Notes under the pieces: model-generated
Database searches by the model: none
What the model was told of the DNA's origin: nothing
Seen by the model: only the letters and a program-made list of their open reading frames with translations
In this document: piece by piece, positions 24,437 to 35,821 of the stretch
How the letters are laid out: the number at the start of each line of letters is the position of its first letter
How positions within the stretch are numbered: the first letter of the stretch is position 1
Made by a program: the position numbers and the translations under genes
Assembly (NCBI GenBank): GCA_027061995.1
Contig: JAMOUT010000018.1
Coordinates: 1-58,548, forward strand
Direction: 5' to 3'
Length of the DNA stretch: 58,548 nt
Source of the DNA: Candidatus Aminicenantota bacterium
GTDB taxonomy: Bacteria > Acidobacteriota > Aminicenantia > JAMOAD01

Positions 24437-25144
24437 ATGTGTTATTTTGTATCTGTTATTAAAAGTAGAATAGAGCTGGAAAAAAGATTTAATTCCAAAT
24501 TCTCCGAACCTGATAAATATTCCCCTTTGTATTTTACCTCGGCGTTTGAGCTTCCGAAACTTCCTTTTATAAGAGGGGATTCTGCCGGGAGTATAGAGCT
24601 TTTTAATTGGGGACTTATACCACGGTGGGTTAAAGATATTGATTTTGCAAAAAAAATAAGGTATAAAACTTTTAATGCAAGATTTGAAACTATCTTTGAA
24701 AAACCCTCTTTCAAACATTTGATTCGAGATAAAAGGGGGATATTACCGGTTAGCGGATTTTTTGAATGGAAAAAAATCAAAGATGAAAAATATCCCTATT
24801 TTATAAAGTTAAATAGTGAAGAGATCTTTTCTCTCGGGGGGATTTGGGACTTTTGGAAAAATCCTGATAATGGCGATATAATTAAAACTTTTTCGATAAT
24901 AACTCTTCCAGCCAATGGTTTTATGAGAAAAATTCATACCACTCAAAATAGAATGCCCCTTATTTTGAGCGGTGGAACTGAAAAAGATTGGCTTGATTTT
25001 TCTTTGACCAAAAAACAATTGAAAGATTTTGTCACGGGAAACAAAGTTGAATCTCTTTCGGCGTATCCTGTTGATAAAAGGATAAGAAAACTCGGGAATA
25101 GAAAAGAGGTTCTGTATAGGTTTGAATATGATAATATAAGATGA
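24437..25144 (+). CDS. SRAP-domain protein (HMCES/YedK family)
   Basis: A 235-aa member of the SOS-response-associated-peptidase family. All key features are present: the catalytic Cys2 exposed after removal of Met1 (MCYFVS), the Asn in TFNARFET, the Glu in GFFEWKK and the His in HTTQNRMPLIL. These proteins form a thiazolidine crosslink with abasic sites in single-stranded DNA and shield them from breakage. Its grouping with a Cdd1-like HHH protein and a DUF6429 protein suggests a DNA-damage unit. No SD is visible; translation may be coupled to the preceding stop six bases upstream. Confidence 0.9.
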   Translation: MCYFVSVIKSRIELEKRFNSKFSEPDKYSPLYFTSAFELPKLPFIRGDSAGSIELFNWGLIPRWVKDIDFAKKIRYKTFNARFETIFEKPSFKHLIRDKRGILPVSGFFEWKKIKDEKYPYFIKLNSEEIFSLGGIWDFWKNPDNGDIIKTFSIITLPANGFMRKIHTTQNRMPLILSGGTEKDWLDFSLTKKQLKDFVTGNKVESLSAYPVDKRIRKLGNRKEVLYRFEYDNIR

Positions 25145-26457
25145 AAAATATTGATAATATAGATATTTGCAAAATATTTTTTATTGTTTTATCTTTGGTT
25201 TTCACGGTTAAAATCGGGCTCTCTAATGAAATTAAAAATATTACCAAAATAGGTTTATGGTCGGGTGGCACTGAATTAAGGGGAGTTAATATCTATCAGA
25301 GAAGAGTTTATCCCGAGCTTGATGATGGTTTGTTGGGAGATAAAGCGGTGGGACCCGTTTATACGGTTGATGATTTTTTGAAATTGAGAGCTTCGGGGGT
25401 GAACTTTGTAAATATCTCTCATCCCGGGATTTTCACCGAAAATCCCCCTTATGTTGTGGATAAAGAGATTCTCGCTAATCTTGAAAGATTATTGCGGATG
25501 ATAAAAGATGCCGATATGTTTGCGGTTATTAGTTTCAGAACAGGTCCCGGCAGAAGTGAATTTACATTTTTTTACGGAGAGGATTATGAATCTGACCCTG
25601 ATGACGGATGGTTTGATAAGAGTTACTATAATGAAAAAGTATGGACGGATAGAAAAGCACAGCAAGCTTGGGTCGATATGTGGAAACAAACAGCGGAATA
25701 TTTCAAGGATAATCTTGTGGTTGTGGGTTATGATCTTATGGTTGAGCCTAATTCAAACGGAGTCCTTCTTGATATATGGAAACCTTCTGAATTTTATCCC
25801 AAATACAAAGGAACAACTTATGATTGGAATACGATTTATCCTGATATAGTTGATGCGATTAGATCCGTTGATAGTGATACTCCTATTTTGATTCAATCTC
25901 TGTCTTACGGGGATATCCCGTGGTTAAAGTATATGACAATTCTTGATGATAAAAAGATTGTTTATACTATTCATCATTATGAACCTTTTGTTTATACCCA
26001 TCAAACCGAGGATTCTTTTAAAGGATATCCCGGATTTTATGATATAGATTATGACGGACAATCTGATAATTTTAATAAGGAATGGTTGGAGAAATATCTT
26101 GCAGAGATTAGGAATTTTAAAGAAGAGAATAATGTCATAACTTCAATTAATGAGTTTGGAGCTGTTAGGTGGGCACCGAGCGTTGCCCTGTTTATCGGTG
26201 ATAATTTTAAATTGTTTGAAAAACTCGGTGTTAATAATGCCATATGGATGTGGTATCCTTCAATGTGGCTTAGAGAACCCATGGCAAGTATGTTCTCCGA
26301 TTTTAATTTTTTGTTCGGACCTAATCCAAATAATTTTATTGAAATTGAAAATGATTTTTACGAAGTATTAAAAAAATATTGGGGTAAAAATCGATATTTT
26401 CCGTCAAATATAAGGTTTATATCGGGTAAAAAGAAGAAAGGAGGGATAAGACGATAA
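25141..26457 (+). CDS. Secreted glycoside hydrolase, family GH5-like
   Basis: A 438-aa protein with a signal peptide (about 1-28) and a GH5-type TIM barrel: LRGVNIYQRR, the strand VNFVNISHPG, the acid/base candidate E202 in MVEPNSNG, HHYEP, and the nucleophile candidate E338 in SINEFGA. In classic GH5 the acid/base Glu is preceded by Asn; here it is Val, so activity may be altered. Probable substrate is a beta-glucan or mannan. Its ATG overlaps the SRAP stop by four bases, although a functional link to DNA repair is not evident. Confidence 0.75.
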   Translation: MKNIDNIDICKIFFIVLSLVFTVKIGLSNEIKNITKIGLWSGGTELRGVNIYQRRVYPELDDGLLGDKAVGPVYTVDDFLKLRASGVNFVNISHPGIFTENPPYVVDKEILANLERLLRMIKDADMFAVISFRTGPGRSEFTFFYGEDYESDPDDGWFDKSYYNEKVWTDRKAQQAWVDMWKQTAEYFKDNLVVVGYDLMVEPNSNGVLLDIWKPSEFYPKYKGTTYDWNTIYPDIVDAIRSVDSDTPILIQSLSYGDIPWLKYMTILDDKKIVYTIHHYEPFVYTHQTEDSFKGYPGFYDIDYDGQSDNFNKEWLEKYLAEIRNFKEENNVITSINEFGAVRWAPSVALFIGDNFKLFEKLGVNNAIWMWYPSMWLREPMASMFSDFNFLFGPNPNNFIEIENDFYEVLKKYWGKNRYFPSNIRFISGKKKKGGIRR

Positions 26458-26507: not shown

Positions 26508-29300
26508 ATGGAGGAAAAGAAGAAAATTATTTGTCCTTTATGCGGAACAGAAAACAGTGAAGATTCAAACTTTTGTGTAAAATGCGGATATGCTTTAAAA
26601 GATGATGATATCCCCACGATGCTATCAGATCAACGATTTTTTTCCAAGGGCGCTATACTTGACGGAAGATATGAGATTATAAGAACAATCGGAGAGGGTG
26701 GGATGGGGGTTGTCTTTTATGCAAAAGATAAAAAACTGAAGAAGGATGTTGCAATAAAAGCACTCTCTTTCACATTGATAAAAGATAGGGAATTTAAGGA
26801 TAGATTATTAAGAGAAGCGATAACTTTAGGTCAGATAGATCATCCGAATATCTGTAGTGTTTATGATGTGGTTATAAAAAAAGAGTATTCGTATATAGTT
26901 ATGCAGTTTATTGAGGGGGAAAATCTTGCGAAAATTCTGAAAAAAGGAAAGCTTCCAGTTGAGAAAGCCATAGATATAGGGATTCAGCTTGCCGAAGGTT
27001 TGAATGCCGCTCATAAGAAAGGGATTGTTCACAGAGATATCAAACCGTCAAATATAGTTATTTCAAAAGACGGTTATGTCAAAATACTTGATTTCGGTCT
27101 TGCGAAACCTTACCTTTATGAAGATGATGGAAACGATAGCAGTATGGATAATTATGAGATAACGAAAACAGGTATTATTGTCGGAACGGTTTCTTATATG
27201 TCTCCTGAACAAGCGGAAGGCGAGAAAGTCGATTATAGATCCGATATTTTTTCTTTGGGGATTATCCTTTATGAGATGTTTACGGGTAAAAAACCTTTTG
27301 AAGGTAGATCACATATCTCTGTTATGGCAAATATTATTAATGCTGAAGTTATTCCTCCGAGTAATATTGCTAAAAATGTTCCTTCGGGTGTGGATGATAT
27401 TATAATAAAAGCTTTGATGAAAAAACCTGATGAAAGATATCAGAATGCCGAGGAAATTAAAAAAGAACTTTTAAAAATCAGGGACGGAGAAAAGTTGAGA
27501 GAGAATGGAATCGGGAAAAAAAGGGATAAGGTGAAGGCAGGTTTAAGGAAAAGATTAACTTCGATAATAATTATTATTCTAATTCTGATGCTTGGTCTTT
27601 TATCACCCATTATTTTTAATCGTAAAAAACCTATGATTGTTGTTCTAAATGCAAAAGTTGACAATAATCTCAGTAAAATAGTGGGGGAGGAGGTTAGCTT
27701 TTTATTGGTAAAATCATTATCCCAATTTGAAAATCATGAAATAATGAATCAAAATTCATTTGATGATTTAAGAAAAAAATGGGGTGATAAAAAAAAGGCT
27801 GTTCAAAAAGAAAATGTAATCCTCTTTATTAAACCTGAAATTAAAAAGATAGGGGAGATGATTAATATTGATACACATCTTATCTATTCCGAGGAGGAGA
27901 AAATACTTACCATAAACGGGATAGGGAAAAAGAGTATTTTGGATTATCAGATAGATAATATAGTGGAGAGATTAAACAATAGTATTAATAAAAAAGGGAA
28001 GATAAAAGTTAGAAAAATATCGGAAATATTAACTTCTGATTGGGAGGCATTTGTTAATTTTTTTCACGGATACAAATTCTGGAAAAAACTTTATATATCG
28101 CAGGCGACCGAATTTTTTAAAAGAGGGTTGAAAAATGATAATAAATTCGCATTGTCATACTATTATTTAACCGAGATATCCATATTTAACGGAGATTATA
28201 TCTCTGCGAAAAAATATATTGATTTGGCAAATAAAAACCTGAAAAAACTTATTAACTATGATAAATATAAGATACTCGCTATGGAAGAAAATTTATCTCT
28301 TAATTTTGACAAACAGAGAGAGTATCTTAAGAAAATTATAAAAATCAAACCGAGAGATAAATTATCTTATTATGCTCTGGCCGAGTCATACTTTCATAGG
28401 GGAGAGGCAAAAAAAGCTTTGAAATATTATGCGAAAGTTTTAAACATTGATGCTGAATTTTCTCCCGCTTTAAATCATGCGGGATTTTGTTTTTCATATA
28501 TAGGTTATCATCTGAAAGCACTTGATTATCTTGAGAAATACAAAGAATTGAACGGGGGAGCAAACGCATATGATAGTCTTGGTGACGGTTATTTTTATCT
28601 CGGGGATTATCTGAATGCTCAAAATAATAAACTGACAGCTTTAAATATGGATCCTAATCTTGATTGGATTTATTATTCCCTCGGTTATATATATTTTATG
28701 GAGCATAAGTTTGATGAAGCGATTAGTGTTAATAAGAAGTATTTTAACAAATCCAAGATAAACAAATATAAAGCTCTTGCCATGGTTCAACTCTCTTTTT
28801 TTAATTATTTCGCCAATAATATGAAAGAGGCTGAACAATATATTAATGATGCCGAAAAAATGTATTCCATCAAAGAGATATATGGTTTTACCCCTGAAAT
28901 ATATTATTTCAAGGGGCTAATTAATCTTAAACAAGGGAAGATGAGAATAGCTAAGGATACACTTTTGGTGTTTGAAAAAATTATTAAAAAACATAATATT
29001 AATAAAAAAAGATTTTTTCCATTACTAAAATTTTATCTTTCTTTAAAGGCTCATATTCAATTCAATGAGAAAAATTATAAAGCTGCTTTTAATAGTATGG
29101 AAAAACTTTTGTCTATGAAGGAAAAACTCGGATATTGGAGCACTTTTTATAATTATCCCTATTTTGTAAATGATTATCTTGAATTATTAAAAAATAGAAA
29201 TAAAGAAAAAAAGTTTAATTATTGGTTAAAGGTTATAAATGATTACAATCCCTATTTTTGGGAAAAATTCAATAATATAAGGACTGATATGGACAAATGA
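26508..29300 (+). CDS. Membrane Ser/Thr protein kinase with zinc ribbon and TPR sensor
   Basis: A 930-aa multi-domain kinase. Residues 9-26 are a zinc ribbon (C9, C12, C23, C26). Kinase domain about 54-325: glycine loop IGEGGMGVVF, Lys84 in DVAIKAL, H175-R176-D177 with IKPSN, D195-F-G, SPEQAEGE and RSDIFSLGIILYEMFTGKKPF, so it should be active. A transmembrane span follows at about 350-372, then an extracytoplasmic part with tetratricopeptide-like repeats (about 510-880). This layout is common in bacteria with large eukaryote-like kinase sets. It precedes a pseudokinase-TonB protein by 37 bases, a likely partner or substrate. Confidence 0.92.
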   Translation: MEEKKKIICPLCGTENSEDSNFCVKCGYALKDDDIPTMLSDQRFFSKGAILDGRYEIIRTIGEGGMGVVFYAKDKKLKKDVAIKALSFTLIKDREFKDRLLREAITLGQIDHPNICSVYDVVIKKEYSYIVMQFIEGENLAKILKKGKLPVEKAIDIGIQLAEGLNAAHKKGIVHRDIKPSNIVISKDGYVKILDFGLAKPYLYEDDGNDSSMDNYEITKTGIIVGTVSYMSPEQAEGEKVDYRSDIFSLGIILYEMFTGKKPFEGRSHISVMANIINAEVIPPSNIAKNVPSGVDDIIIKALMKKPDERYQNAEEIKKELLKIRDGEKLRENGIGKKRDKVKAGLRKRLTSIIIIILILMLGLLSPIIFNRKKPMIVVLNAKVDNNLSKIVGEEVSFLLVKSLSQFENHEIMNQNSFDDLRKKWGDKKKAVQKENVILFIKPEIKKIGEMINIDTHLIYSEEEKILTINGIGKKSILDYQIDNIVERLNNSINKKGKIKVRKISEILTSDWEAFVNFFHGYKFWKKLYISQATEFFKRGLKNDNKFALSYYYLTEISIFNGDYISAKKYIDLANKNLKKLINYDKYKILAMEENLSLNFDKQREYLKKIIKIKPRDKLSYYALAESYFHRGEAKKALKYYAKVLNIDAEFSPALNHAGFCFSYIGYHLKALDYLEKYKELNGGANAYDSLGDGYFYLGDYLNAQNNKLTALNMDPNLDWIYYSLGYIYFMEHKFDEAISVNKKYFNKSKINKYKALAMVQLSFFNYFANNMKEAEQYINDAEKMYSIKEIYGFTPEIYYFKGLINLKQGKMRIAKDTLLVFEKIIKKHNINKKRFFPLLKFYLSLKAHIQFNEKNYKAAFNSMEKLLSMKEKLGYWSTFYNYPYFVNDYLELLKNRNKEKKFNYWLKVINDYNPYFWEKFNNIRTDMDK

Positions 29301-29337: not shown

Positions 29338-31191
29338 ATGGAAGGAAAAAGGTTTGGTAATCTTTATTTTACAAAAAAAATAAGAGAAGTTTATCTTGGA
29401 GAGGAATTCAGAACTATCGAGATTGAGAATGATAGTTTTAAAGAATTTAAAAAAGCATTGGTTTTATCAAAAGAGATTAGGATTTCTATGGATGAGTTAA
29501 AATCGTATTTCAGATTATTTCGGAAAAAGAATATCAAGAATGTTATTACGAGTGATACGATAGAATTTATACAGGGAAGACCCGTTATACTGTCTGAATA
29601 TCAAAAAGCGAAAACACTAACCGAAGTTGTTGAGCAAGGTAAAAAAATAAATAATCCGGTTTCACTTGATAATGCTTTGCATATTTTTATGACTATTTTT
29701 GATCTTGCTTTATCTTTTAAAAATGAGTTTTCCAATGATGGACAAAAAGTCTATTTTCTCCCTGTTCCCGATGATATCATAATAGATGAAGAGGGGGCTA
29801 TCTTTTATCAATATCCTTTATGTAATATATTGTTAGGTAAAGATAAGGGGGTTGAAAAACTTCTTTATAATAAATTTCCGCATTTAATGAAAGATAAGGG
29901 AAAAATCGAGTTAAAAAAAGAGATTTATTGGTTTACTTCTCTTTTTTATTGCATGATAACAGGTGAGAAATTACCTTCCGAAATTAAGGTGGATACAACC
30001 TATATAGCTTCTAAAAAATTATTAAATCCGTATCAATCGTATAGGAATATACCGGAATTTATAGTTCCTATTATTGACAAAGGGATAAACGGAGATTATA
30101 AATCATTAGCCCAGATGTGGAAAGATTATGAAGAGATAATAATGGACGGGGATATAACCCCTTCAACTTTTAATCTTGCATTTTATTATAATTCACTCTT
30201 TAAAGAGGAGAGAAAAATTGAAGAAAGTGAGATGGAAAAAGAGAAAAACGGGGAAATCCCTCAAGATACATTTTTATTGGAAAAGGAAAAAACTGAAAAA
30301 ATGGAAAAAGAGATTTTTTCGGTTATGGATGAAATTGAGGACAAAACAGGGGCTAATAAAGGGCTTATTCTTGGTATAGTCGGGATAGTGGCCATAGTTG
30401 TTTTACTTGCCATTCTTATTCCTAAATTTATTAATAAACGGCAACCGGTGGTTCAGCAACAAAAAGTTGATATTAATAAGATAACTAAACAGATAGAACA
30501 AAAACTGTCCGAGAAGTATGATGAGCAGATAAAACAGATGAAAGAGGAATTTCAACAAAAGTTATCTCAGGCCAAAGATGAAGAAAAGAGAAAAGCTTTG
30601 ATAGCGGAACAAAAGAGGAGAATAGCCGCTATTAACAGGCAGAGAAAACAGGAGACGCAACAGACACTCGCACAAGTTACGAAAAAGATAAATACTCAAC
30701 AATCAGTGAAAGAACAGCAATCCGTAAAAAAAGAACCTGCGAAAACCGATAATAAAGAAACGGATACGGACAATACATTAATCGTAAGAGAACAAAAGAA
30801 ACCTTCCGAACAAATTAAGTCTGAAGAGAACAAAATCAAAGAGGTGGAACCTGTGAAAAAGGAGACACCGAAGCCAAAAAAACCCATAGTCAGAGAGGGG
30901 GATATAGTTCCGATTACGGAGCTTGATAAACCCTTACAAATTCTTAAAAATCCTGTCCCGAGATTAACTTATACTGAGACAAAACTCGGTGCCGTTAGGC
31001 TTATCATGCAGGTTCTTGTTAATACTAAAGGAAGAGCGGAAAAATTCAGAATTTTGAGGATTATTCCTAAAATAGCCGGTCTTGATGCAAGGATGAAAAA
31101 AGTTATTAAGGATTGGAAATTTTCAATACCTACTAAAAATGGGATTAAAGTTAAAACATGGAGAACAATTTCTATGCTTATCAAAAAATAA
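29338..31191 (+). CDS. Pseudokinase-like domain fused to TM, coiled coil and TonB C-terminal domain
   Basis: A 617-aa protein. The first 285 or so residues align in layout with the neighbouring kinase but lack its motifs: there is no glycine loop and no HRD (the position reads VPDDIIIDEEG), no DFG, while EIYWFTSLFYCMITGEKLP corresponds to DIFSLGIILYEMFTGKKP. A TM span (about 342-362) is followed by a Lys/Glu/Gln coiled coil (about 370-445), a Pro/Lys linker, and a C-terminal domain (about 520-615; GAVRLIMQVLVNTKGRAEKF, DWKFSIPT) resembling TonB_C. SD is GTGAGGTG. It could couple kinase signalling to an outer-membrane component. Confidence 0.7.
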   Translation: MEGKRFGNLYFTKKIREVYLGEEFRTIEIENDSFKEFKKALVLSKEIRISMDELKSYFRLFRKKNIKNVITSDTIEFIQGRPVILSEYQKAKTLTEVVEQGKKINNPVSLDNALHIFMTIFDLALSFKNEFSNDGQKVYFLPVPDDIIIDEEGAIFYQYPLCNILLGKDKGVEKLLYNKFPHLMKDKGKIELKKEIYWFTSLFYCMITGEKLPSEIKVDTTYIASKKLLNPYQSYRNIPEFIVPIIDKGINGDYKSLAQMWKDYEEIIMDGDITPSTFNLAFYYNSLFKEERKIEESEMEKEKNGEIPQDTFLLEKEKTEKMEKEIFSVMDEIEDKTGANKGLILGIVGIVAIVVLLAILIPKFINKRQPVVQQQKVDINKITKQIEQKLSEKYDEQIKQMKEEFQQKLSQAKDEEKRKALIAEQKRRIAAINRQRKQETQQTLAQVTKKINTQQSVKEQQSVKKEPAKTDNKETDTDNTLIVREQKKPSEQIKSEENKIKEVEPVKKETPKPKKPIVREGDIVPITELDKPLQILKNPVPRLTYTETKLGAVRLIMQVLVNTKGRAEKFRILRIIPKIAGLDARMKKVIKDWKFSIPTKNGIKVKTWRTISMLIKK

Positions 31192-31218: not shown

Positions 31219-32199
31219 ATGAAACAGACGAAAATAATATCCACAGGCTCTTATTTACCCGAGAAAGTTTTAACGAATTTTGATCTTGAAAAGATCGTTG
31301 ATACCACGGATGAATGGATTACCACAAGAACAGGTATTAAAGAGAGACATCTTGCTGCTGAAAATGAGGCAACATCCGATTTGGTTATTAAGGCGGCTAA
31401 GATAGCTCTCGAAAGAGCTAACCTTGAGGCAAAGGATTTAGACGGCATTATAGTTGCAACTATTACACCCGATAATACATACCCTTCAACAGCATGCTGG
31501 GTTGAAAAAGGGTTAGGAATTAAGGGGATTCCCGTTTTTGATGTATCCGCCGCATGCACAGGTTTTGTTTATGCTCTTGCAATTGCTGATTCCTTGATAA
31601 AAACCGGGACAATGAAAAGAATACTTGTCGCGGGAGCTGAAACCCTAACTAAGTTTACTAATTGGGAAGATAGAAGCACTTGTGTTTTATTTGGTGATGG
31701 AGCCGGAGTTGTAATCCTTGAAGAAAGTGATGATGAATCCGGTATATTAAGCACTTTTTGGGGAGCCGACGGAAACCTCGGTGAGCTGTTAATACAACCT
31801 GCAGGAGGTTCCAAGATGCCACCCACGGAAGAGACCGTTAAAAATAAATTGCATACGGTTCATATGGAAGGTAATAAGGTTTTCAGATGGGCTGTCAGAT
31901 ATATGCAGGAAGCCGCTGAAAAAGCCCTTGAAAAAGCCGGTTTGACCGGTGAGGATATTGATCTTTTTATCCCTCATCAAGCTAATCTCAGAATTATAGA
32001 GCAGACTGTGAAATATGCTAAAATTGATCCTAAGAAAACATATATAGTTATAGACAAAATAGCGAATATATCAGCGGGAACAATTCCCATTGCTCTTGAT
32101 ATGGCAGTCAATGAAGGGAAAATTAAAAAAGGAGATATTCTTCTTTTCGCAGCTTTCGGAGGAGGTTTTACTTGGGGAGCCGCAACTCTTAGGTGGTAA
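31219..32199 (+). CDS. fabH: 3-oxoacyl-ACP synthase III
   Basis: Initiates fatty acid synthesis by condensing acyl-CoA with malonyl-ACP. The 326-aa protein has the complete triad: Cys113 in DVSAACTGF, His253 in PHQAN and Asn283 in ANISAG; DEWITTRTGIKERH at 31-44 is characteristic. ATG is preceded by AAAGGAG. It lies 27 bases after the pseudokinase gene and before folP, not in a fab cluster. Confidence 0.95.
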   Translation: MKQTKIISTGSYLPEKVLTNFDLEKIVDTTDEWITTRTGIKERHLAAENEATSDLVIKAAKIALERANLEAKDLDGIIVATITPDNTYPSTACWVEKGLGIKGIPVFDVSAACTGFVYALAIADSLIKTGTMKRILVAGAETLTKFTNWEDRSTCVLFGDGAGVVILEESDDESGILSTFWGADGNLGELLIQPAGGSKMPPTEETVKNKLHTVHMEGNKVFRWAVRYMQEAAEKALEKAGLTGEDIDLFIPHQANLRIIEQTVKYAKIDPKKTYIVIDKIANISAGTIPIALDMAVNEGKIKKGDILLFAAFGGGFTWGAATLRW

Positions 32200-32232: not shown

Positions 32233-33045
32233 ATGAATACTAATAATTCCGATATACTTATAATGGGTATATTAAATGTAACCCCGGATTCATTTTCCGA
32301 CGGCGGAAAATATCTTAATACGGACAAAGCGGTGGAGAGAGCTTTAAACATGAAGAATGAAGGAGCCGATATAATTGATATAGGTGGTGAGAGCACCAGA
32401 CCTTTTGCCGACCCTGTGTCTCTAACAGAAGAGTTGGAGAGAGTGGTTCCCGTTATAGAAAGAATAAGGGAAAAAAGTGATATAAAAATTTCAATTGATA
32501 CATATAAATCTAAGGTAGCTGAAGAAGCTATAAAAGCGGGAGCTGATATTGTAAATGATATTAGCGGGACGACATTTGACAAAAGGATGAAAGAGGTTGT
32601 TAAAAAATATGATAAACCTATTATTATTATGCATATAAAGGGAACCCCTAAGAATATGCAGATTAATCCCGAATATAATGATTTAATAGGTGAGATAAAA
32701 AGATTCTTAATTGATCGAAAAAAAGAGTTGAATGAGTTCGGGATAGGGGATGATAAAATAATAATAGATCCGGGGATAGGTTTCGGTAAAAAAATGGAAC
32801 AAAATTATATTATTATTAACAGACTTAAAGAGTTTAAATCAATAGGTTTGCCTATACTTATAGGAGCATCCCGGAAATCTTTTCTCGGAAAACCATTCGA
32901 TTATTCCATTGACGAAAGGGAGGAGGGAACATGTGTTTCTTCCGTCATATCCATTATTAATGGAGTTAGTATTTTAAGGGTTCATAATATTGTTTCAACA
33001 AAAAGGGTGATTAATACCATGAAGATGTTTAAGAGGTATGAATGA
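32233..33045 (+). CDS. folP: Dihydropteroate synthase
   Basis: Joins p-aminobenzoate to dihydropterin pyrophosphate in folate synthesis. The 270-aa TIM barrel has MGILNVTPDSFSDGG near the N-terminus, IDIGGESTRPF, SIDTYKSKVAEEAI, GADIVNDISG, IIDPGIGFGKK and GASRKSFLG, all diagnostic. The stop overlaps the lptB start by four bases. No clear SD precedes the ATG, which lies 33 bases after fabH. Confidence 0.95.
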   Translation: MNTNNSDILIMGILNVTPDSFSDGGKYLNTDKAVERALNMKNEGADIIDIGGESTRPFADPVSLTEELERVVPVIERIREKSDIKISIDTYKSKVAEEAIKAGADIVNDISGTTFDKRMKEVVKKYDKPIIIMHIKGTPKNMQINPEYNDLIGEIKRFLIDRKKELNEFGIGDDKIIIDPGIGFGKKMEQNYIIINRLKEFKSIGLPILIGASRKSFLGKPFDYSIDEREEGTCVSSVISIINGVSILRVHNIVSTKRVINTMKMFKRYE

Positions 33046-33761
33046 GTTTAAAAACTGACAATCTTAAAAAAATATACGGGAGTCGTGAAGTTGTCAAAGG
33101 GATGAATATTGAGATTAATAAAGGGGAGATAGTTGCACTTTTGGGGAAAAACGGAGCGGGAAAAACCACAACTTTCAAAATGATTCTCGGGGTTGTCAGA
33201 CCGGATTCGGGAGATATCCTGTTTGAAGATAGTGTTATAACGAGACTTCCGCCTGATAAAAGGGCGAGGACAGGGATTACATATCTGCCTCAGGAACCAT
33301 CCGTATTTAAAAAAGCGAGTGTTGCCGATAATTTCAGGATTATTATGGAAGAGATAGGATATGGTAAGGAAACTGCGGAAAAGAGGATTGATGATCTTTT
33401 AAAAGAATTTGATATAGAGAATCTTAAAGATTCAATGGCATATACTTTGTCAGGCGGGGAAAGAAGAAGAGTTGAGATTGCAAGAGCTCTTATTATTGAT
33501 CCTCATTATTTTCTTCTTGACGAACCTTTTTCAGGGGTTGATCCTTTAACAATAGTGGAACTCCAAAAATTGATTAAATATCTGAGTTCAAGAGAGATAG
33601 GGATTCTTATTTCGGATCATAATGTGCATGATACATTTGATATTGCAAATAGGGTTTATATAATTGAGGATGGGGTTGTTATTGCGGAGGGGCTTCCCGA
33701 AGAGATGGCTTATAATTCTCTTGCGAAAGAAAAATTTCTTGGTAAGGATTTTATCTTTTAA
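33042..33761 (+). CDS. lptB: LPS export ABC transporter ATPase
   Basis: A 239-aa cytoplasmic ATPase. Walker A GKNGAGKTT at 35-43, Q-loop LPQEPSVFKK, signature LSGGERRRVEIAR, Walker B FLLDEPFSGVDP, and the H-loop SDHNVHDT. The VFKKASVADN segment after the Q-loop and the SGVDPLTI D-loop are those of LptB, which powers lipopolysaccharide extraction through LptFG. The other lpt genes are not in the window. This is one of the best markers of an LPS outer membrane here. Confidence 0.92.
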   Translation: MSLKTDNLKKIYGSREVVKGMNIEINKGEIVALLGKNGAGKTTTFKMILGVVRPDSGDILFEDSVITRLPPDKRARTGITYLPQEPSVFKKASVADNFRIIMEEIGYGKETAEKRIDDLLKEFDIENLKDSMAYTLSGGERRRVEIARALIIDPHYFLLDEPFSGVDPLTIVELQKLIKYLSSREIGILISDHNVHDTFDIANRVYIIEDGVVIAEGLPEEMAYNSLAKEKFLGKDFIF

Positions 33762-33790: not shown

Positions 33791-35821
33791 ATGAAAAAAA
33801 TCACTTTCTTGATTTTTCTCTCTATGTTGATAGTTATAGGTGTAAATTTTATGTTTTCTTGCACTGTTGGCGTGGCTTCGGGAAAAGCTACCTTGGACGG
33901 AAGACCATTGCTTTGGAAAAACAGAGATTCTTCGGGATTTGAGAATTATGTCCAATATTTTATAAGTAATGGTTATAATTTTCTCGGCTTGTTTAGCAGA
34001 GGAATTCCATCTTCGATGTATGGGGGGATGAATGAGAGAGGATTTGCCATAATGAATTCAGTTGCTTATGATAAAGGGAAGACAGGGGGATTTGATAATG
34101 GACGATTGATGAAGAGAGCTCTTGAAGAATGCGGAAGCGTGAGTGAATTTGAGTTATTGTTAAAAAAAGTGATGGGAAAATATGATCTCGCAGCGAATTT
34201 CGGAGTTATTGACTCACAGGGGCGTGCGGTCATCTATGAGACTTCCTCAAATTCATATGAAAAATATGATGCTGCTAAAACAAAAGATGGGTATATATTA
34301 AGAACGAATTTTTCCATCTCCGGTGGTGGAAAAGTGGGAATAAGAAGGTTTGTGCGAGAAAAGGAGATATTCGAGAAAAAATTATCAAATAAAAAACTTA
34401 CGGTGAATTTTCTTTTAAAAAAGGTTTTCAGAGATATAAAAGATGAAAGCGGAACAATTTTTAATTATGATAAAGGTTATTCAGCGGGTGATAAAAGATT
34501 CTATAATACGAAAAATTCCATATGCAGACCATATTCTGTATCAGGCATGGTTTTCAGAGGGGTAAAACCCGATGAACCGGAATATTTGTCAACCTTTTAT
34601 ATAATACTCGGCAACCCTTTAACGGGAAGTGTTTTACCTCTATGGGTTGCTGCCGGTGATGTCCCCGAGATTGTCGGCAGGTATAAAAATTCTCTGTTGA
34701 ATTTTGAGCAAATGAAAATTTATCATTATATATATCCTCATGATAAAGAATATACTCTTGATGTTTCATATCTTGCAGGTGAGAGATCCCCAAACCTTAT
34801 AAGAAAATTATTTTCTCTTGAAAATAGCATAATCGGTGAGAGTGAACAAGCTCTTAAAAGTTGGCGAAAATCTTTTCCCGGAGAAAAAGCGATTTCAGCT
34901 TTTCAAAATTATCTTGCTGAAAAGCTTTATTCTAATTATAGAAAAATAAACAAAGAACTTTACTATTTAAATAAATTTAGAAACATAAATATTAAACCCG
35001 CACTAAAAATTAATAAAAACATAATCTCAAATATATTATCCGATGGAAAAAAACTCTATTTTATTAGTTCCGATAATAGATTAAATATTTTTAACACGGG
35101 AAATCGGAAGATAAAAAGGATTAAATTAGGGTTTAAAACCGGTAAGCATTTGCTTATGGAAAAAGGGTTTGATAATACCTTACTTTTATTACAAGAGAAT
35201 AAACTGATAAAAATCACTCCTCCTTTATATAAAAAGATGAAAATCATCGGATTGTCCGATTTCCATGGTTATGACAGATATCTGAAAAACAATAAAACAA
35301 GCTTTTTTATCAGGGTTAGAAATAATCTTTTGGTTGGTGTTCCCGAAAAACATATTATTATTAATATTGATATATCAAAAAAAAGAATTACAAAAAAAGC
35401 CGGTAAATACGGATTTTCCGGATTCAGAGACGGGACAAGCTCGTTATCACTTTTGAAAACCCCCTATTCCGCTTTTAAGAATAATAAAGATGAACTGATT
35501 TTTAGCGATAAGGGCAATAATTCTATAAGATGTTTAACTCAAGCGGGGGTTGTTTTTACTATTGTCGGCAAAGGGAGAAGAGGGGTTGAGTCGGGATGGA
35601 AACACGAGGTTCAAATTGATGAACCGATGCAAATAATCGAGAATGAGGAGGGAGATATTTTTCTAATTACAAATATCGGATTAAGGATAATTGATAAAGA
35701 ATATTTCTCTTTTTTATTAATTAAGAATAACAAGTTTAAGAATTATAATCTTGTATATTTAAATGGTAAAATTCATATTTATGATAATTTGAAAAAAATA
35801 TTAGAAAGATTGAATATGTAA
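33791..35821 (+). CDS. Exported Ntn-hydrolase (C45/linear amide hydrolase-like) with extra C-terminal region
   Basis: A 676-aa protein. Residues 1-23 form a signal peptide that ends exactly before Cys24 (CTVGVASGKATLDGRPLLWKN), the expected N-terminal nucleophile of the choloylglycine/acyltransferase (Ntn) group; the RDSSGFEN and GGMNERGFAIMNS segments fit as well. The hydrolase part extends to about 330. The last 270 residues have recurring strand-like pieces (LYFISSDNRLNIFNTG, TLLLLQENKLIKI, DEPMQIIENEEGDIFLITNIG) suggestive of an NHL-like beta-propeller. Likely cleaves an amide bond outside the cytoplasm; substrate unknown. SD is GAGGAG. Confidence 0.7.
   Translation: MKKITFLIFLSMLIVIGVNFMFSCTVGVASGKATLDGRPLLWKNRDSSGFENYVQYFISNGYNFLGLFSRGIPSSMYGGMNERGFAIMNSVAYDKGKTGGFDNGRLMKRALEECGSVSEFELLLKKVMGKYDLAANFGVIDSQGRAVIYETSSNSYEKYDAAKTKDGYILRTNFSISGGGKVGIRRFVREKEIFEKKLSNKKLTVNFLLKKVFRDIKDESGTIFNYDKGYSAGDKRFYNTKNSICRPYSVSGMVFRGVKPDEPEYLSTFYIILGNPLTGSVLPLWVAAGDVPEIVGRYKNSLLNFEQMKIYHYIYPHDKEYTLDVSYLAGERSPNLIRKLFSLENSIIGESEQALKSWRKSFPGEKAISAFQNYLAEKLYSNYRKINKELYYLNKFRNINIKPALKINKNIISNILSDGKKLYFISSDNRLNIFNTGNRKIKRIKLGFKTGKHLLMEKGFDNTLLLLQENKLIKITPPLYKKMKIIGLSDFHGYDRYLKNNKTSFFIRVRNNLLVGVPEKHIIINIDISKKRITKKAGKYGFSGFRDGTSSLSLLKTPYSAFKNNKDELIFSDKGNNSIRCLTQAGVVFTIVGKGRRGVESGWKHEVQIDEPMQIIENEEGDIFLITNIGLRIIDKEYFSFLLIKNNKFKNYNLVYLNGKIHIYDNLKKILERLNM

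Follow-up and report, generated by a model that had tools for sequence, protein, structure and literature searches.

In M. tuberculosis, the pseudokinase domain of the membrane protein MviN (MurJ), which represents the family ActPs3, has lost all catalytic motifs and carries a shortened activation loop. As a PknB substrate that recruits FhaA and holds back the synthesis of peptidoglycan, MviN ties this polymer to signalling by Ser/Thr kinases and FHA proteins (PMC12599244). EssB/YukC of the type VII secretion systems of Firmicutes is a single-span membrane pseudokinase scaffold as well (PMC12599244). The combination of a cytoplasmic signalling domain, one transmembrane (TM) span, a periplasmic region and a C-terminal TonB_C domain is found in GltG/PglI of the Myxococcus gliding machinery. 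GltG comprises 640 aa with an FHA domain at 26-90 and TonB_C at 570-637, and binds the ExbB-like AglR (PMC3169522).

Here, a 617-aa protein of a Candidatus Aminicenantota bacterium is described, encoded on a stretch of 58,548 nucleotides (the window). It resembles MviN in the loss of all catalytic motifs, the shortened activation segment and the membrane location, and the same link to peptidoglycan is proposed for it. However, the pseudokinase of MviN is joined to a flippase and to a carbohydrate-binding domain outside the cell, lacks TonB_C and belongs to an actinobacterial family. A Pfam search found no MurJ domain in the target, and its HRD region and that of its relatives reads HGF, HGL or YFL and not the VALT / Lsidhpsr set, so that by these two marks it is not an ActPs3 member. 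GLW in place of HRD occurred in no member inspected, which also sets the family apart from the GLW pseudokinases as defined in PMC12599244. EssB/YukC shares the single-span pseudokinase plan but has no TonB_C and acts in a secretion system. GltG shares the overall layout, whereas its cytoplasmic domain is FHA instead of a kinase fold and it belongs to an ExbB-type motor complex. The target does not have the FHA or zinc-ribbon/GYF domain of GltG/GltJ, and no glt-like gliding context was seen in the neighbourhoods inspected. Gram-negative TonB matches the target in the fold of the C-terminal domain, but its cytoplasmic tail is short, its TM contains a histidine and its partners are ExbB and ExbD.

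Organization of the locus

The features of the locus, all on the plus strand, are as follows.

26508..29300, +, adjacent active Ser/Thr kinase with zinc ribbon, kinase domain (26670-27461), TM and TPR (Pkinase 1.2e-55)
29338..31191, +, whole target gene, predicted pseudokinase-TM-coiled coil-TonB_C protein, 617 aa (ORF and orthologs)
29347..30213, +, predicted pseudokinase domain, residues 4-292 (AlphaFold and fold search, Z 20; profile matches to PknB)
29752..29775, +, lost catalytic loop site, HRDxxPxN replaced by YFLPVPDD, residues 139-146 (alignment to active kinases)
29809..29817, +, lost DFG site, QYP, residues 158-160 (alignment)
30157..30201, +, family motif TPSTFNLAFYYNSLF, residues 274-288, in the helix after the C-lobe (alignments)
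30361..30420, +, single transmembrane span, residues 342-361 (hydropathy scan, mean hydropathy 3.45)
30472..30723, +, long predicted helix, probable coiled coil, residues 379-462 (AlphaFold secondary structure)
30724..30897, +, disordered Lys/Glu/Gln-rich linker, residues 463-520 (pLDDT below 50 over 462-514)
30898..31188, +, predicted TonB-type C-terminal domain, residues 521-617 (AlphaFold, TonB CTD matches, Pfam in alignment members)
31219-32199, +, fabH (NCBIfam TIGR00747 above cut-off)
32233-33045, +, folP (NCBIfam TIGR01496 above cut-off)
33042-33761, +, lptB (NCBIfam TIGR04406 above cut-off)

The bounds of the target ORF are exact, with an ATG at 29338 and a stop at 31191. The gaps to the kinase ORF and to the fabH start are short (37 and 27 bp, respectively), the genes share one strand and no terminator-like site was located on the plus strand in the gaps between kinase, target and fabH. 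Thus, co-transcription of kinase, target, fabH, folP and lptB is likely, and the order fabH-folP-lptB is retained in the sister genomes. By motif reading, the upstream kinase has GxGGMG, VAIK, HRD and DFG intact. A GH5-type cellulase-like protein is encoded upstream of the kinase (25141-26457), and lptB is followed by the gene of a C45-family acyltransferase/peptidase-like protein (33791-35821).

A kinase-like domain without catalytic residues and a TonB-type C-terminus

When the window protein was searched alone, Pfam gave no kinase match at the N-terminus and phmmer found no kinase in the PDB. An HMM built from only the active kinases of these bacteria matched residues 67-270 (19 bits, E 1.3e-4). 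Single-protein searches against Pfam and NCBIfam yielded only sub-threshold matches and were therefore not accepted as a basis for assigning either the kinase or the TonB_C domain. In the ortholog alignment Pkinase was matched by 16 of 21 members (best 1.6e-18), the ortholog profile retrieved S. aureus PknB from the PDB at 8e-21, and profile-profile comparison of the family with its active paralogues (hhalign) gave 99.7% over 303 columns. The AlphaFold model of residues 4-292 superposed on solved kinases with a Z of about 20 (252 residues aligned, 3.2 Å, VIA-align). The alignment used for the model contained clearer kinase relatives, so that the model draws in part on the sequence evidence. 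From ortholog profiles and predicted fold together, a protein kinase-like fold (Pkinase clan) is clear for the N-terminus.

The criteria that define a catalytically active Ser/Thr kinase by sequence are the β3 lysine, the HRD aspartate and the DFG aspartate, and the target has none of them. In the window protein the proline is the only residue of the catalytic loop that is retained, HRD is replaced by YFL (139-141), a deletion has removed the DFG aspartate (leaving YP, 159-160), and the β3 (ATP) lysine and the first two glycines of the glycine loop are absent in the alignment. The three catalytic residues are likewise gone in every inspected member in which the motif region is present, a comparison covering the motif-selected relatives, a few of them fragments without part of the region, and 21 profile-chosen members from across the phylum. 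The replacements differ between lineages: at the HRD position, where the window protein has YFL, sister families within Aminicenantes show HGF or HNL and other lineages HGL, HGA or similar triplets, and the substitutes of the β3 lysine vary as well. Conserved in place of the catalytic motifs are P144, G153, T208-G209 and TFNL, which are invariant in the alignments. The TFNL residues T277-F278-N279-L280, invariant in alignments A1 and A4, form the core of a motif of the form [ST]PxTFNLAF, and the 21 profile-found members include the variants TFNM, TFNI, TFNT, TFNF, TFHL, PFHL and PFDL.

At the other end of the protein, PF03544 scored 14.7 bits against the window protein alone, under the cut-off of 24.6, and was matched by all 21 alignment members (best 7.9e-16). 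The last 110 residues were modeled with a pLDDT of 90. Foldseek returned TonB and its homologue FusB as top matches of the predicted domain (3e-5), and the best superposition on a TonB CTD, 6i97_D, reached a Z of 10.4 over 87 residues at 2.2 Å. By the profile of the ortholog alignment and by predicted fold, the C-terminus is a TonB C-terminal domain (PF03544). These results bear out the sequence-only reading, made from the DNA letters, which had described a kinase-like layout lacking glycine loop, HRD and DFG, followed by a TM span, a coiled coil and a TonB_C-like domain. The two outcomes that it had named as refuting it, an N-terminal fold unrelated to kinases and a C-terminus failing to match TonB_C, were both checked for, and neither was observed. 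That reading had also connected a cytoplasmic pseudokinase directly to the periplasm or outer membrane; the pseudokinase-TM-periplasmic TonB_C architecture is supported, whereas the reach to the outer membrane stays hypothetical. TonB_C domains may remain in the periplasm or contact peptidoglycan as well, and the TM of the target lacks the histidine of ExbBD-coupled TonBs in its genome.

The TM span is not of the type expected for an energized TonB. It contains a histidine in none of 58 family members, and SxxxH is likewise missing, unlike in two exbBD-linked TonB-type proteins of the window genome that carry the TM histidine (IFHV, SILLH). This makes it unlikely that the target is driven by ExbBD. 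No exbBD genes were found beside the target gene in the window. The genome encodes ExbD (4), TonB-dependent receptor plugs (7) and other TonB_C proteins, which indicates that a normal TonB system is present apart from the target. An ExbBD-energized TonB was thus rejected on the TM sequence and the lack of adjacent exbBD. An N-in orientation of the family proteins is what we infer; the positive-inside rule is uninformative on this point, since Lys/Arg residues are about as frequent on one side of the TM as on the other (3.0 against 2.9).

Distribution, origin and gene neighbourhoods of the family

Three sister genomes encode full-length orthologs that share 45-47% identity with the target, and a fourth encodes one at 38%; these orthologs are from Candidatus Aminicenantes. 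A scan of genome contigs for close relatives, with the single protein as query, gave no match. Searching 84,980 species with an alignment as query yielded 66 confirmed loci, among which conservation of the family motif holds by construction, as TFNLA was the one pattern of the scan and distant forms may exist elsewhere. All carry Acidobacteriota-type names, with the exception of one labelled Chrysiogenales (L100). Some relatives come from records labelled Holophagae, Thermoanaerobaculia and Vicinamibacteria, others from the cultured isolates Acanthopleuribacter pedis and Sulfidibacter corallicola; the members checked span at least 13 GTDB families. The target is therefore no oddity of one genome, but belongs to an Acidobacteriota-wide family.

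In a tree of kinase domains, with kinases from the fetched loci as the only outgroup, the family forms one clade (support 1.0, stem 1.06). Its sister group consists of active receiver-kinase-TM-TonB_C proteins, the pair being supported at 1.0. The subfamily of the window lies on the longest internal branch of the tree (1.63), and the activation segment is shortened in this lineage. Since the dead members form one clade that is sister to active proteins, catalytic inactivation is probably ancient. The simplest reading is that a kinase-TM-TonB_C gene was duplicated, lost catalysis before the sampled classes diverged and has been retained for long. The active sister group is represented in Aminicenantes by Ser/Thr kinases with TM and TonB_C at L052:11122-13479 (contig C22 of the window's own genome), L055, L057, L058 and L061, most of which also have an N-terminal receiver domain. 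Across the last 239 residues of the target, the L052 protein is 48% identical to it. Such proteins, with receiver-kinase-TM-TonB_C (for example L057), receiver-TM-TonB_C (for example L063) or kinase-TM-TonB_C (L052) layouts, share the TM-TonB_C module with the target and include the closest relatives of its kinase domain in the tree, but their HRD and DFG are intact or they have no kinase domain, and they lack the TFNLA motif. Receiver-TM-TonB_C proteins (L063:7765-9552, L066:6517-8343, L064:6274-8130, L068, L069, L070) are common in other Aminicenantes families; their receiver output would lie in the periplasm.

The gene neighbourhoods differ among classes. The active kinase is found next to the pseudokinase gene in all four genomes of the window's own GTDB family in which the upstream gene is visible (the window and three sisters), the contig of the fourth sister ending at this position, and it is absent elsewhere. 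The sequence-only reading had suggested that homologous operons be surveyed for conservation of the pair; as a general rule the pair was rejected, other lineages showing mltG, HIT/SLT/Ddl, ATP synthase or FHA-GAF-cyclase and TPR genes instead. Being conserved only in the window's own family, the adjacent kinase is not the general partner. Its phosphorylation or binding of the target, which had been proposed too, is possible in the window's lineage and not in general.

In at least six families, mltG lies directly upstream on the same strand with a gap of 0-190 bp. This arrangement was seen at 21 loci, of which 12 were motif-selected and nine came from 20 loci that were not. At L141:1543-5603 two family members stand in tandem directly behind mltG, which suggests a local duplication. 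In another group the pseudokinase gene is followed by HIT at seven loci, six of which also have an SLT lytic transglycosylase, and three of these six have Ddl and MurF-Alr in front as well. Yet another group has the pseudokinase gene ahead of the ATP synthase operon. At L075:3705-5959, in a sister Aminicenantes family, an FHA-GAF-adenylate/guanylate cyclase gene (two genes upstream of the pseudokinase) and a TPR gene lie directly upstream. Some neighbour genes in Vicinamibacteria had no Pfam or NCBIfam match, and no link to type IV pili is claimed. In the window's own family the gene adjoins neither mltG nor SLT, its neighbours there being fabH, folP and lptB. As the neighbourhoods vary among classes, with ATP synthase in one, no single partner is universal. 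The loci within each neighbourhood group are related and hence are not independent events, and the mltG linkage can be inherited synteny without function. That lytic transglycosylases recur in two different arrangements provides the best lead to a function.

Possible roles of the family

Given that catalysis is lost, that the TM does not conform to the ExbBD type, and that the neighbours in different lineages include peptidoglycan enzymes, a kinase and an FHA protein, the best supported reading is that of a phospho-regulated membrane pseudokinase scaffold which, by analogy to MviN, would couple cytoplasmic phospho-signals to envelope growth; a probability of about 0.45 is assigned to it. The target would thus be the membrane-anchored scaffold of an ancient Acidobacteriota family. 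Its kinase-fold domain would lie in the cytoplasm and, being non-catalytic, offer a docking site to an active Ser/Thr kinase, an FHA protein or other partners. The TM and periplasmic helices would carry the TonB-type domain, not energized by ExbBD, to envelope partners. The most plausible ones would be MltG or SLT-type lytic transglycosylases of the peptidoglycan machinery, or else a protein of the outer membrane or periplasm. In streptococci, the Ser/Thr-kinase substrates DivIVA and EloR bind MltG (PMC10269899). That the plan is workable is shown by GltG, in which one TM links a cytoplasmic signalling domain to TonB_C (PMC3169522). It is more doubtful whether, phylum-wide, such pseudokinases use a non-energized TonB domain to relay Ser/Thr phospho-signals physically through the inner membrane, to lytic transglycosylases or to proteins of the outer membrane.

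Signals might also run from the outside in, the TonB_C domain sensing the occupancy of TonB-dependent receptors or a periplasmic ligand and the pseudokinase acting as an allosteric switch of an active kinase, which in the window's lineage would be its neighbour. The TonB CTD fold, the receptor plugs, ExbD and separate TonBs of the genome, the active kinase immediately upstream and the sister proteins with receiver and active kinase domains on the same module are in line with such a sensor. It is nevertheless rather unlikely, as the kinase pairing is limited to one GTDB family and no receptor gene was seen beside family members in the neighbourhoods inspected. Pseudokinase allostery over another kinase is known chiefly in eukaryotes, which also counts against a sensor. 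Still less probable is a structural strut of an envelope-spanning machine, with the pseudokinase as its cytoplasmic plug. GltG of the Myxococcus gliding motor provides the precedent with a different cytoplasmic domain (FHA-TM-TonB_C), but the family TM lacks the histidine expected for contact with an ExbB-type motor, and the neighbourhoods inspected contained no motor or glt-like gene set. Residual ATP-dependent activity of an unusual kind, as in SelO and SidJ, would fit the constraint on fold and family and the existence of noncanonical pseudokinase enzymes (PMC12599244). It is very improbable, since SelO and SidJ retain ATP- and metal-binding residues, whereas the corresponding lysine and aspartates are absent here and replaced differently among lineages. 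That the target is a decaying kinase on its way to loss, as its long branch and shortened activation segment might suggest, is scarcely credible given intact full-length ORFs, the identity among sisters and retention in at least 13 families, and a degenerate pseudogene was rejected on conservation.

The scaffold reading concerns an architecture for which the sequence-only reading knew of no characterised protein, and no published description was found in the open literature. Searches there for TonB with pseudokinase and threonine kinase, or for the TonB C-terminal domain with a kinase domain, returned none; kinome surveys in subscription journals may contain it as an unnamed cluster. TonB and Acidobacteria both go unmentioned in a 2025 review of bacterial pseudokinase families (PMC12599244). 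Taken singly, membrane pseudokinases, TonB_C tails and links from kinases to the cell wall are known, and it is their combination as a phylum-wide family that was not found described. Bacterial pseudokinases of known function are few. The present family is old and has been conserved throughout a major phylum of soil and subsurface bacteria, cultured species included, and in several lineages its genes are linked to those of lytic transglycosylases. It is thus a concrete and testable candidate for linking Ser/Thr kinase signalling to cell-wall growth in these Gram-negative bacteria. If such proteins do relay phospho-signals through the inner membrane phylum-wide, this would be an undescribed way of coupling cytoplasmic signalling to envelope growth. 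TonB domains are seen here as tails of signalling proteins (pseudokinase, active kinase and receiver) and not as energy transducers.
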